A stretch of DNA of 39,113 nucleotides, from assembly GCA_007988785.1 (NCBI GenBank), contig BJUU01000026.1:1-39113 (forward strand), read 5' to 3'. The notes beneath the pieces were generated by a model, which saw only the letters and a list, made by a program, of their open reading frames with translations, searched no databases and was not told the DNA's origin. Position 1 is the first letter of the stretch, and the number at the start of each line of letters is the position of its first letter. This stretch comes from Agrococcus baldri (lineage in GTDB: Bacteria; Actinomycetota; Actinomycetes; Actinomycetales; Microbacteriaceae). Of the stretch, positions 10,767-33,669 are shown in pieces. The position numbers were made by a program, and so were the translations under genes.

Positions 10767-10770
10767 CCCG

Positions 10771-10855
10771 CGCCGCGCCGCATCCGGCAACGCCGCGCTG
10801 CATCCGGCCCCGCCGCGCCGCATCCCGCCCCGCCGCGCCGCGCCGCATCCCGCGG
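10771..10855. repeat. 20-bp GC-rich tandem repeat
   Basis: Three units of exactly 20 bases (10771, 10791, 10811; consensus CGCCGCGCYGCATCCSGCNN) are followed by a fourth that carries a 5-base expansion. Each unit contains one GCATCC. It lies in the 307-base gap between the zinc-ribbon gene and the DUF559 gene; the rest of this gap holds the palindromic element at 10910-10991 and a short promoter. I see no gene in it. Confidence 0.8.
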
Positions 10856-10909
10856 CCGACGCCCAGTCCAGCGGCCTGCGCGCCCCAGCCCGCCCGGCGC
10901 GTGTCCCAG

Positions 10910-10991
10910 GATGAGGGCCGATTCGCGATTCGTCACGAATCGAGGACGAACGGGGCCGGATCGCGCGAGGCGTCCTCAAGTGGTGACGCGG
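10910..10991. repeat. Left 82-bp palindromic element flanking the DUF559 gene
   Basis: Begins GATGAGGGC and ends GTCCTCAAG followed by TGGTGACGCGG. Inside, CGATTCG occurs twice in tandem (10919-10932) and pairs with CGAATCG (10936-10942) over a TCA loop. The right element at 11949-12029 has the same outer words at nearly the same spacing. Confidence 0.7.
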
Positions 10992-11061
10992 CATCCGCGC
11001 CCGCTCCGCTCGCACTCCACAGCCGGCGCGTCTGAGCGAGCGGTGACGGGGCCGTCCGCGG

Positions 11062-11067
11062 CAGAGT
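11062..11067 (+). promoter_or_regulatory. -10 box CAGAGT of a leaderless transcript
   Basis: CAGAGT-N6-ATG (11074). The DinB gene has nearly the same arrangement (CAGACT, then the identical six bases GCCTGC, then ATG). Confidence 0.5.
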
Positions 11068-11073
11068 GCCTGC

Positions 11074-11919
11074 ATGCGCGACATCGCTGTGGATCTGGCT
11101 GCTGCGGGTGGCGCCGCGACCCGCACGGCGCTGCGCGCGCTGGGGCACACGAGCCGGCAGATCGGCGCGGCGATCGCGCGTGGCGAGGCGCAGGCCGTCG
11201 GCCGGAGCTGGGTGATGCCGCCGGAGGCGGATGCATCGATCAAGGCAGCACTGGAGGCGGGCGGCGTGCTCGGCGGCGCCTCGGCGCTGCGCAGCTACGG
11301 CGTCTGGGTCACCGACGATCCGGGCTTGCAGATCGCGACGCAGCCGACGAGGGGCGCGGCCGCCGTGTCGGTGGGCGTTCGCATCTGGGAGCGCTTCGAG
11401 CCGGATGCGCGGCCATGGCGCGTGAGCATCGTCGACGCCCTGGCGCAGCACGCGCGGCGGGTGGCGCGCGAGCACGCGATCGCCTCGATCGACAGCGCTC
11501 TGCATCACGGCCTCATCGCCGAGCACGACCTCGACCGGCTGTTCGCGATGCTGCCGGCGCGGTGCGCGACGTGGCGGAGGCTGCTCGACCCGCAGGCGGG
11601 CTCGGGGCTCGAGTCGCTCGTGCGCGTGGCGTGCCTCGACCGGGGCTGGCGGGTCGAGTCGCAGGTGCCTGCGCCCGGGGGCGGCTTCAGCGATCTGCTC
11701 ATCGACGGATGGCTCTACGTCGAGGCCGACGGCGACGAGTGGCACGACAACGAGAAGCAGGCTGGGAAGGACCGGAGGCGCAACCGTGCGATCACCGACA
11801 AGGGGGACCGGTGGCTGCGCTTCGGCTACGCGGAGATCGTGCACGACCGCGATCGCACGATCGAGACGATCGCGCTGGTGCTGGCGCAGGGCCGGCCCGG
11901 GTTGCGGCGCGCGAGCTGA
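11074..11919 (+). CDS. AbiEi-like HTH / DUF559 Vsr-fold endonuclease-like protein
   Basis: A 281-residue protein. Residues 1-50 look like the AbiEi_4 antitoxin winged helix (GAATRTALRALGHTSRQIGAAIARGEAQAV). The C-terminal third is DUF559, a Vsr/PD-(D/E)xK-fold nuclease-like domain: Glu in GLESLVRVA, FSDLLIDGWLYVEADGDEWH with Asp and Glu, then DRRRNRAITDKGDRWLRFGYAEIV. The full fold appears intact. Such proteins are abundant in actinobacteria as solitary genes, often annotated as type IV toxin-antitoxin AbiEi-like antitoxins, but their role is not established. No partner toxin or methylase is adjacent. The gene is flanked on both sides by related palindromic elements, the left one ending 82 bases before the start and the right one beginning 29 bases after the stop. 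Confidence 0.85.
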   Translation: MRDIAVDLAAAGGAATRTALRALGHTSRQIGAAIARGEAQAVGRSWVMPPEADASIKAALEAGGVLGGASALRSYGVWVTDDPGLQIATQPTRGAAAVSVGVRIWERFEPDARPWRVSIVDALAQHARRVAREHAIASIDSALHHGLIAEHDLDRLFAMLPARCATWRRLLDPQAGSGLESLVRVACLDRGWRVESQVPAPGGGFSDLLIDGWLYVEADGDEWHDNEKQAGKDRRRNRAITDKGDRWLRFGYAEIVHDRDRTIETIALVLAQGRPGLRRAS

Positions 11920-11948
11920 CGCGGCGGAGCAGCGGGCGCCCGTGGCGA

Positions 11949-12029
11949 GATGAGGACGGATGCGGGCAGGAGGCGAAAGCGTCCTCGTCCGGGTGCGATT
12001 CGCGAATCGGTCCTCATCTGGTGACGTGG
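11949..12029. repeat. Right 81-bp palindromic element flanking the DUF559 gene
   Basis: Perfect terminal inverted repeats GATGAGGAC (11949-11957) and GTCCTCATC (12010-12018), followed by TGGTGACGTGG. A perfect 14-bp palindrome CGATTCGCGAATCG is at 11996-12009. Relative to the left element the CGATTCG block is at the opposite end. It also lies between the convergent stops of the DUF559 gene and mdh, so a terminator role is possible. Confidence 0.7.
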
Positions 12030-31572: not shown

Positions 31573-31731
31573 TCAGGCGTCGAGCCAGTCCGGCGGCAGC
31601 TGCCGCCCCACGGTGCCGGCGAGACGCTCGAGGTCATCGTCGCTGACGGGCCCGCGGAGGGTGCCCGCGACCTCCGGCAACCGGTCGTGCAGCACGCCTT
31701 CGATGATGTCCTATGCGGTATCGATGTCCGC
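31573..31731 (-). pseudogene. SUKH (SMI1/KNR4) gene remnant with internal deletion
   Basis: A broken copy of the intact SUKH gene at 33106-33669. The last 15 bases (stop and four codons) are joined directly to the first 144 bases, with 405 bases missing between. 405 is a multiple of three and the junction has two bases (AG) of microhomology. The 144-base part differs from the intact gene at three positions: one removes the GTG start (now GCG), one turns Trp7 (TGG) into TAG, and one is elsewhere. The remnant ends exactly at the stop codon of the SseB-like gene. It cannot make a SUKH protein. Confidence 0.92.
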
Positions 31732-33105: not shown

Positions 33106-33669
33106 TCAGGCGTCGAGCCAGAGGCCGAGCGTGTCGTCGATGGTGAACGCTCCAGCGTCGAGCTTCTCGGCCAACGACGACAGCCACGCCCCGTAGGAGG
33201 GGAACTCGGGAGCCGGGGTGGGCCCGTCCACCGGCAGGAAGATGACCTGACCGACCTCGCCGGCCGGCAGCGGATCGAGGTCGAGGGCGTAGCCCTGGCT
33301 CTCCGCGGCGGTGAACTGCAGCCATCCCCGGCAGTTCATGATCGGTCTGACGCGCTCCGGCGACATCCACTCGATGATGTCGTCGACGTTGTCGCCGAGC
33401 GCGCCGACGCGCATGTCGGAGGTCTCGATCATCGCCTGGGCGCTGAGCAGCGTGAAGTGGTCGAACAGGTCGAGCAGGGCGGTCGGGTTGTCCTGACCGT
33501 CGTGCCGGCGCAGGCTCGCCACGAAGTCCGGCGGCAGCTGCCGCCCCACGGTGCCGGCGAGACGCTCGAGGTCATCGTCGCTGACGGGCCCGCGGAGGGT
33601 GCCCGCGACCTCCGGCAACCGGTCGTGCAGCACGCGTTCGATGATGTCCCATGCGGTATCGATGTCCAC
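33106..33669 (-). CDS. SMI1/KNR4 (SUKH) family protein
   Basis: A 187-residue SUKH-superfamily protein: early LERLAGTVGRQLPPDFVASLRRHDGQD, which is the family's LP-x-DF/Y pattern, then LLDLFDHFTLLSAQAM, RGWLQFTAAESQGYALDLDP and GEVGQVIFLPVDGP. SUKH proteins are common immunity proteins against polymorphic toxins, usually in arrays. No toxin is seen here, so it may be an orphan immunity gene. GTG 33669 has TAGTCT six bases upstream on the minus strand. It is the parent or sister of the remnant at 31573-31731. Confidence 0.88.
   Translation of the reverse strand: MDIDTAWDIIERVLHDRLPEVAGTLRGPVSDDDLERLAGTVGRQLPPDFVASLRRHDGQDNPTALLDLFDHFTLLSAQAMIETSDMRVGALGDNVDDIIEWMSPERVRPIMNCRGWLQFTAAESQGYALDLDPLPAGEVGQVIFLPVDGPTPAPEFPSYGAWLSSLAEKLDAGAFTIDDTLGLWLDA

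Follow-up and report, generated by a model that had tools for sequence, protein, structure and literature searches.

Comparison of a 39,113-nucleotide stretch of Agrococcus baldri DNA (hereafter the window; contig C26 of a 3.16 Mb genome) with related genomes revealed an association, almost certainly genuine, between a DUF559 nuclease-like gene and the palindromic elements beside it. A first-pass annotation of the window had proposed a REP-like link of this kind, and this part of its proposal was borne out: the elements border the gene in relatives, occur dispersed through the genomes that have it and are spelled in a species-specific way, and other DUF559 clades have palindromes of their own. 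Its further suggestion that gene and palindromes move as a unit was not upheld, as 12 Agrococcus orthologs are syntenic and many dispersed copies occupy old shared sites. No report of a DUF559-palindrome association was found in the literature searched, which consisted of titles and the beginnings of abstracts and included few subscription journals. On balance, we favour a REP-like partnership of gene and repeat with an unusual enzyme, in which repair following nuclease action would copy the repeat.

The gene encodes a protein of 281 amino acids for which DUF559 was the Pfam match over its cut-off (21.8 versus 20.6 bits); REase_MTES_1575 was under threshold (27.4 with a cut-off of 38.2) and NCBIfam gave no match. 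The structure predicted from an alignment of 15 relatives was confident (mean pLDDT 89.5). Its top two Foldseek targets among solved structures were the AbiEi antitoxin 6y8q (E 4.8e-4, the sole one of the two under 0.001) and 3r3p (E 2.6e-3, probability 1.00, target TM 0.78), which is the catalytic domain of I-Bth0305I, a homing endonuclease, the latter giving the predicted structure the catalytic-domain fold of EDxHD homing endonucleases. The residues E180, D207, E217, D219 and H224 were each invariant in all 77 aligned DUF559 proteins and, by analogy, are the likely catalytic residues. PADLOC yielded a weak match of AbiEi type (E 6.4e-4) and, for one relative, a weak homing-endonuclease match (E 0.0019). 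Several DUF559 proteins with AbiEi-like N-termini were present per genome in the genomes examined here, and to our knowledge such proteins have no accepted role.

Table 1. Features of the DUF559 locus (positions in the window).
Feature	Position	Strand	Basis or remarks
5' palindromic element, 85 bp	10903..10987	+	Comparison with relatives
Parts of the 5' element	M1 10903-10918; hairpin spacer 10919-10931; M2 10932-10947; centre and decayed M3 10948-10971; M4 (inverted) 10972-10987	+	
Nuclease gene, 281 aa	11074..11919	+	N-terminal part AbiEi-antitoxin-like, C-terminal part Vsr/EDxHD-like nuclease
Nuclease domain, about aa 178-272	11605..11889	+	Holds E180, D207, E217, D219, H224
3' palindromic element, 84 bp, inverted copy	11942..12025	-	Comparison with relatives
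Parts of the 3' element	M1 12010-12025; hairpin spacer 11997-12009; M2 11981-11996; centre and decayed M3 11958-11980; M4 11942-11957	-	

Comparison with relatives showed the element to be built of four 16-bp motifs on the plan ->13->5<-2<-, 84 bp in total, that is, M1 forward, 13 nt, M2 forward, 5 nt, M3 reverse, 2 nt and M4 reverse; M3 has decayed in the two copies of the window. The spacer of 13 nt, of the CGATTCGCGAATC type, forms a small hairpin by itself, and the end that faces the gene on either side is the one without this spacer; the 5' element stops 86 bp ahead of the start codon. The strings quoted in the first-pass annotation were all in place: GATGAGG at 10910 and 11949, GTCCTCA 62 and 61 bases on, the TGGTGACG[CT]GG ends, the CGATTCG hairpins and, in the right element, a perfect 9-base terminal inverted repeat. 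The paired elements it described are real but have different limits and are mutually inverted (Table 1), which explains why the hairpin lies to the left in one and to the right in the other. Self-comparison of the window aligned 10903-10948 with 11980-12025 as an inverted pair (46 nt, 74%). A covariance model (R1), with both elements in its training set, matched the 5' element with an E-value of 5.1e-12 and the 3' element with 3.0e-13. Judged on the window by itself, the two elements have self-similarity scores (32 and 34) that show no excess over decoy spacings; the elements are judged real on comparative grounds, namely dispersed copies within their own genome, orthologous loci, paired changes and decoy-spacing controls over 21 stretches. 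When 21 elements of 8 genomes were aligned, 24 of 36 pairs had both-sided changes, a figure matched by 1 of 500 shuffles (0 of 500 for the covariation score); this covariation is descriptive only, because the 21 elements are mutually related and were selected by eye for their fit to the plan. Searches against Rfam gave no match at the elements and a single sub-threshold match located inside the gene. The window contains further repeats: GC-rich 20-nt tandem units of the CCGCGCCGCATCCGG type at 10768-10847, between the Zn-ribbon gene and the 5' element, and a 143-nt direct repeat of 99% identity at 31587-31729 and 33525-33667, 1.9 kb apart.

Some DUF559 match was present in all 24 Agrococcus genomes, and a close ortholog of the window's gene (at least 63% identity) in 12 of them, the other 12 having none over 49%. 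All 12 orthologs lie at one locus, marked by mdh, the Zn-ribbon gene, a monooxygenase gene and a diacylglycerol-kinase-like gene, not all of which occur in each genome (the contig of G017 begins at the DUF559 gene and shows one side of the locus). Each ortholog has at least one element alongside, partly by-eye readings in G012, G017, G019 and G020. Elements stand on both sides of the gene in G000, G001, G002, G005, G014 and G021 and near it on one side in G009, G010, G012, G017, G019 and G020; G012 has a second element past the Zn-ribbon gene and G019 an additional partial one. The motifs are spelled GAGGA in G000, G001, G005, G014, G021 and mostly in G012, GCGGA in G002, CAAGGA in G017, GAGGC in G019 and G020, and GAGTC adjoining the gene in G009 and G010. 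The spelling beside the ortholog therefore differs by species, and it matches that of the dispersed copies where these were found. At the same mdh locus, the order of the DUF559 and Zn-ribbon genes and the orientation of the DUF559 gene vary among species (orthologous loci L043-L053), a pattern suggestive of frequent local inversions or moves. In G001 (L028), the final motif of the 5' element has grown into an 18-bp tandem array in which GCTTCCTCTGCTCGCGAC is repeated.

Dispersed copies were sought with R1, built from the 21 elements, in the 24 Agrococcus genomes; distinct places with E <=1e-5 were counted, gene-adjoining ones included and second-strand matches excluded. There were 22 places in G002, 15 in G005, 12 each in G000 and G001, 11 in G021, 8 in G014, 6 in G012, 5 in G022, 2 in G009 and 1 each in G010, G011, G016 and G019, and at this threshold none in G003, G004, G006, G007, G008, G013, G015, G017, G018, G020 and G023. 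The nine genomes with neither an ortholog nor a 43-48% homolog (G003, G006, G007, G008, G013, G015, G016, G018 and G023) had one place in total. These counts are biased upward, since eight positive genomes went into the model; outside its training set, G022, which has three distant homologs (one fragmented), gave its 5 places, and the ortholog-bearing G017 and G020 and G004, with distant homologs, gave none at 1e-5. Matches were listed down to an E-value of about 0.0015. In single-contig genomes the element places were spread along the chromosome.

A sequence-blind geometry scan, which scores the mutual likeness of M1, M2 and M4 at fixed spacing with decoy spacers as control, was applied to the window and 20 loci. 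With a spacer of 13 it gave 12 matches scoring at least 38, a few of them overlapping, and 12 decoy spacers from 7 to 19 gave none; at thresholds of 31-33, decoy spacers of 8, 11, 14 and 17 matched or exceeded the counts for 13. The scan also recovered elements of wholly different spelling next to distant homologs of 43-48% identity (L056 and L057), with TCACGAAATGTTGACC flanking the gene on both sides on contig C82 of G022 and GTGCTGAAATGCTGGG adjoining the gene on contig C42 of G004. Of 8 distant-homolog loci, these 2 had an element, giving 3 sides at every threshold; decoys gave at most 2 sides at 33 and none at 35-36.

The setting of the dispersed elements bears on whether they act as regulatory sites. 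Among 82 loci, a custom ORF caller placed 33 between convergent, 30 between tandem and 3 between divergent genes, with 16 unresolved; background gene pairs with gaps of at least 60 nt were convergent in 28 cases and divergent in 39. The elements are thus extragenic and lie mostly between convergent or same-direction genes, as the REP/RAYT definition has it. A self-regulating DNA-binding protein with a regulon, whose AbiEi-like part would act via the 5' element as a repressor of its own gene and via the dispersed copies as one of other genes, with the nuclease incidental, would suit the AbiEi-like N-terminus, the element finishing a short way upstream of the start codon, and the concerted motif change described below, as expected of sites that track a changing protein. 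We regard it as unlikely nonetheless, given that the dispersed elements avoid promoter regions (3 of 82 divergent), that a second copy lies downstream of the gene in the window and in five other genomes, and that the nuclease residues are invariant. A promoter regulon was accordingly rejected on the context of the elements.

The 82 loci comprised 77 stretches round R1 matches, some weaker than 1e-5, and 5 earlier loci of the window's genome. Under the requirement that both flanks be collinear, 52 between-genome pairs of loci, in 16 clusters, represented the same site (one G021 locus, doubled in its assembly, supplies 3 repeated pairs of the 52). The collinear flanks imply that the sites were inherited, and the orientation of the element was shared in 48 of the 52 pairs. 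Motifs were compared in 69 loci, the remaining 13 being excluded for having no scan-recognised element. In G002, GCGGA was found in 33 of 36 M1, M2 and M4 motifs of scan-recognised elements, and GAGGA in 113 of the 117 such motifs of five relatives. The core identity of G002 with these relatives was 0.642 over 12 same-site pairs and 0.649 over 456 different-site pairs; within G002 it was 0.785 (66 pairs). For all genomes the values were 0.733 at same sites (34 pairs), 0.634 at different sites (2064 pairs) and 0.793 within genomes (248 pairs), the intermediate same-site value being expected because close relatives are included. Spelling follows the genome and not the site, so the motifs change in concert. 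Such concerted spelling at old sites would be accounted for by a recognition protein that changes or by gene conversion among the copies. A second motif type on the same four-motif plan, GAGCAGCGGT, occurs in G009, G010 and G015 (L129, L130 and L169); one site of this type is common to G009 and G015, the latter holding a mere remnant of the ortholog.

Old shared sites of conserved orientation, concerted motif change and places spread along single-contig genomes would also be in keeping with elements that organise the chromosome, as barriers, anchoring sites or repair-control sites, the DUF559 protein being a binding or processing factor kept for the benefit of the cell. An ortholog missing from 12 of 24 genomes and decayed in G015, together with a copy number that ranges from 2 to 51 within one family, sits badly with such a service, and we consider this reading quite improbable, more so than a regulon.

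The history of individual sites was followed in genomes with and without the gene. At the groEL site, the element was present in four gene-bearing genomes (G001, G005, G014 and G021) and was not seen in nine gene-less ones; at site S1 it was present in 6 of 11 matched gene-bearing genomes (G000, G001, G002, G005, G017 and G021), and none was seen in nine gene-less genomes, five of whose gaps were viewed in part. Both patterns are illustrative, because the sites were picked for having the element in gene-bearing genomes. When G001 was compared with G014 and G020 in search of a footprint at S1, the gap was wider than the element and had no clean insertion boundary; G014, 96-97% identical to G001 in the flanks, is without the wider intergenic stretch as well as the element. 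No clean transposition footprint was therefore seen at S1, the one site compared closely, the difference being a wider deletion or replacement and not an element-sized gap; movement of gene and palindromes as a unit, as proposed at first pass, was not seen in this comparison, nor was any fresh insertion observed in the genomes studied. Other palindromes occur at both sites: at groEL, several Agrococcus genomes (for example, L253, L256 and L258) have another common palindrome, GGTCTCGATACG...CTCGACCAGCGG, irrespective of the DUF559 ortholog, and at S1, the intergenic site that the DUF559-linked element occupies in other species contains another repeated palindrome, GCAGAGTTCCGGCACTCTGC, in G009 and G015.

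Signs of gene loss were found as well. In G015 a remnant of the ortholog, 72 residues long, persists next to mdh, and G016, without an ortholog, has a decayed-looking match at a site common to three other genomes. A case from another genus is G048, in which two elements enclose the gene and about 15 places match its element at E <=0.1; its relative G124 has about 16 such places and no profile match better than 2.2e-41, and the gene's own place there holds a single truncated element between flanks about 90-96% identical. We read G124 as a case of recent gene loss. Its copies without the gene imply that copies outlive the gene for a time. The main refuting outcome named in the first-pass annotation, an element found genome-wide with no link to DUF559 genes, did not arise. 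G124, with its element-matching places and no close ortholog, counts against the favoured reading.

The place of the gene in G124, with its one truncated element and collinear flanks, the fold match to I-Bth0305I and the weak PADLOC match of a relative would also suit a homing-type cassette, in which the element is the nuclease target, gene and elements invade or restore a one-element site, and single copies are targets or remnants. That 12 of 12 close Agrococcus orthologs share a locus and that the G015 remnant has decayed in place make this improbable, to about the same degree as a regulon, and matches to plasmids (2 records) and phage (1 record) were partial and weak. On those matches, a plasmid- or phage-borne element was rejected.

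A profile search of 398 Microbacteriaceae genomes extended the association beyond the genus. Among the matches listed, 14 loci in other genera belonged to the same subfamily (at least 230 bits), the rest scoring at most 195. Nine of the 14 had an element (scan score at least 33, within 500 bases of the gene), and related palindromes were seen by eye in L204 and L205 too; the spellings include GACCGGAG, ACAGCAG, ACAGGCC and CAACAGGTGC. With spacers of 12-14, the numbers of flank sides were 13, 11, 9 and 7 at thresholds of 33, 34, 35 and 36; decoy spacers of 3-5 gave 6, 4, 4 and 2, and the other six decoy sets 0-2. In 10 loci of other subfamilies the four-motif plan showed no excess (2 sides per threshold versus 0 to 5 for decoys); one of them, L211, has an element pair.

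Other DUF559 clades were assessed by comparing the 5' flank of each gene with its own 3' flank. A flank pair scoring at least 40 was found in 29 of 60 further DUF559 loci (17/30 in Agrococcus, 12/30 elsewhere) and one scoring at least 36 in 35; 31 loci were under 40. No pair was found at any of 95 control ORFs (maximum 33), which were all drawn from 13 Agrococcus stretches, some being orthologous to each other. The majority of high scorers resemble palindromes some 50-100 bp long whose sequences are unrelated; several of those scoring 40-41 are short matches of 20-45 nt and less clear-cut. When flanks of 350 nt were used, a score of 36 was reached by 12 of 17 other DUF559 loci; the corresponding null, from flanks of different loci, had 95% points of 29-32 and a handful of very high values that probably stem from near-identical loci. 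Of the close orthologs, 5 of 10 reached 36 and the window scored 37; no more of them pass because their elements have drifted and some genomes have just one beside the gene. One palindrome, GCAGGCGAT...ATCGCCTGC, flanks a monophyletic clade of four DUF559 genes in G006, G007, G008 and G013 (support 100/100), all of which are without the window's ortholog. Copies of it numbered 51 in G006, where two identical ones bracket the gene, 26 in G007, 2 in G008 and 35 in G013, with 0 for a reversed-pattern control; elsewhere the pattern occurred 6 times in G009, once in G015 and not in G010, and the sampled DUF559 genes of G009 and G015 included none of this clade. The C5 paralog in the window's genome has a flank pair, yet no convincing dispersed copies. 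If the elements were common intergenic palindromes or terminators adjacent to the gene by coincidence, they would be palindromic and often between convergent genes, as is seen. The excess of flank pairs over control genes, the species-specific four-motif plan and the absence of Rfam matches at the elements render chance the least credible of the alternatives, and a very improbable one; a plain terminator was rejected on the Rfam result and the negative control genes.

We infer binding, cutting and repair copying from features read in the sequences, namely the architecture, the gene association, dispersal, old shared sites, concerted change, conserved residues and recurrence in other clades. 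In the favoured gene-and-repeat partnership, the AbiEi-like N-terminal part would read the 16-bp motif of the 84-bp element, and the DUF559 protein probably recognises its element. The Vsr/EDxHD-like nuclease would then introduce a nick or cut at the element, probably while the palindrome is in extruded or single-stranded form, and the break would be repaired from another copy, so that copies spread, are kept and are homogenised; gene-adjoining copies would keep the gene within range of its own activity. That the nuclease drives the spread or homogenisation of the element is, in our judgement, somewhat better than an even bet. More tentatively, orphan AbiEi-DUF559 proteins might be the enzymes of an unrecognised superfamily of palindromic repeat systems in Actinobacteria, with clade-specific palindromes that bracket the gene and in some genomes are seeded along the chromosome, and with the nuclease driving their copying and concerted evolution through break-induced gene conversion, as a homing-like counterpart of REP/RAYT whose enzyme is unrelated; this broader proposal we rate below the partnership itself. 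If true, a large uncharacterised gene family would gain a function and a DNA target legible from the sequence beside each gene, REP-like repeats would gain a second enzyme class, and the concerted evolution of dispersed bacterial repeats would get a testable, nuclease-driven mechanism, for which natural specificity variants (GAGGA, GCGGA, GAGTC and ACAGGCC) are at hand.

Several known systems share parts of this arrangement. The AbiEi antitoxin of type IV toxin-antitoxin systems, encoded next to the nucleotidyltransferase toxin AbiEii, resembles the DUF559 protein in its N-terminal fold and through the weak PADLOC match, whereas the DUF559 protein fuses the AbiEi-like part to a nuclease domain, and the mapped neighbours (seven window genes traced in relatives) are housekeeping genes. 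The EDxHD (Vsr-like) homing endonuclease I-Bth0305I, described as having a long target of nearly 60 bp (PMC3943268), shares the catalytic-domain fold; the DUF559 gene differs in being chromosomal among housekeeping genes and between palindromes, its product has an AbiEi-like N-terminus, and homing would be only putative. TIRtrons (TIRYT) are outlined as RAYT-like genes between long terminal inverted repeats, some of them dispersed (PMC3733652); a gene between a repeat pair and, in some families, a moderate number of dispersed copies are common to both (PMC3733652), but the enzyme family is unrelated. The organisation also resembles that of REP/RAYT, presented in PMC3116915 and PMC3733652 as an enzyme gene beside its own palindromes, which are dispersed between genes, mostly convergent or same-direction ones, and differ among enzyme genes. 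Here too a chromosomal gene is adjoined by palindromes that are also dispersed in the genome, the C5 paralog excepted. The differences are that the enzyme is AbiEi-like with a Vsr/EDxHD-like nuclease and not an HUH Y1 tyrosine transposase (IS200/IS605-like), that the window element is a four-motif 84-mer and a REP a GTAG-tagged hairpin, the tag being absent from the element ends in the genome motif consensuses (for example, GTCnCgAgcnGAGGAC in G005) and the 21-element alignment, that copy numbers are under the >100 quoted for REPs (PMC2817692), and that many dispersed sites of the DUF559-linked element are common to several species. As its enzyme is not of the RAYT type, the DUF559 system is not a member of REP/RAYT, though it would appear to work like one.
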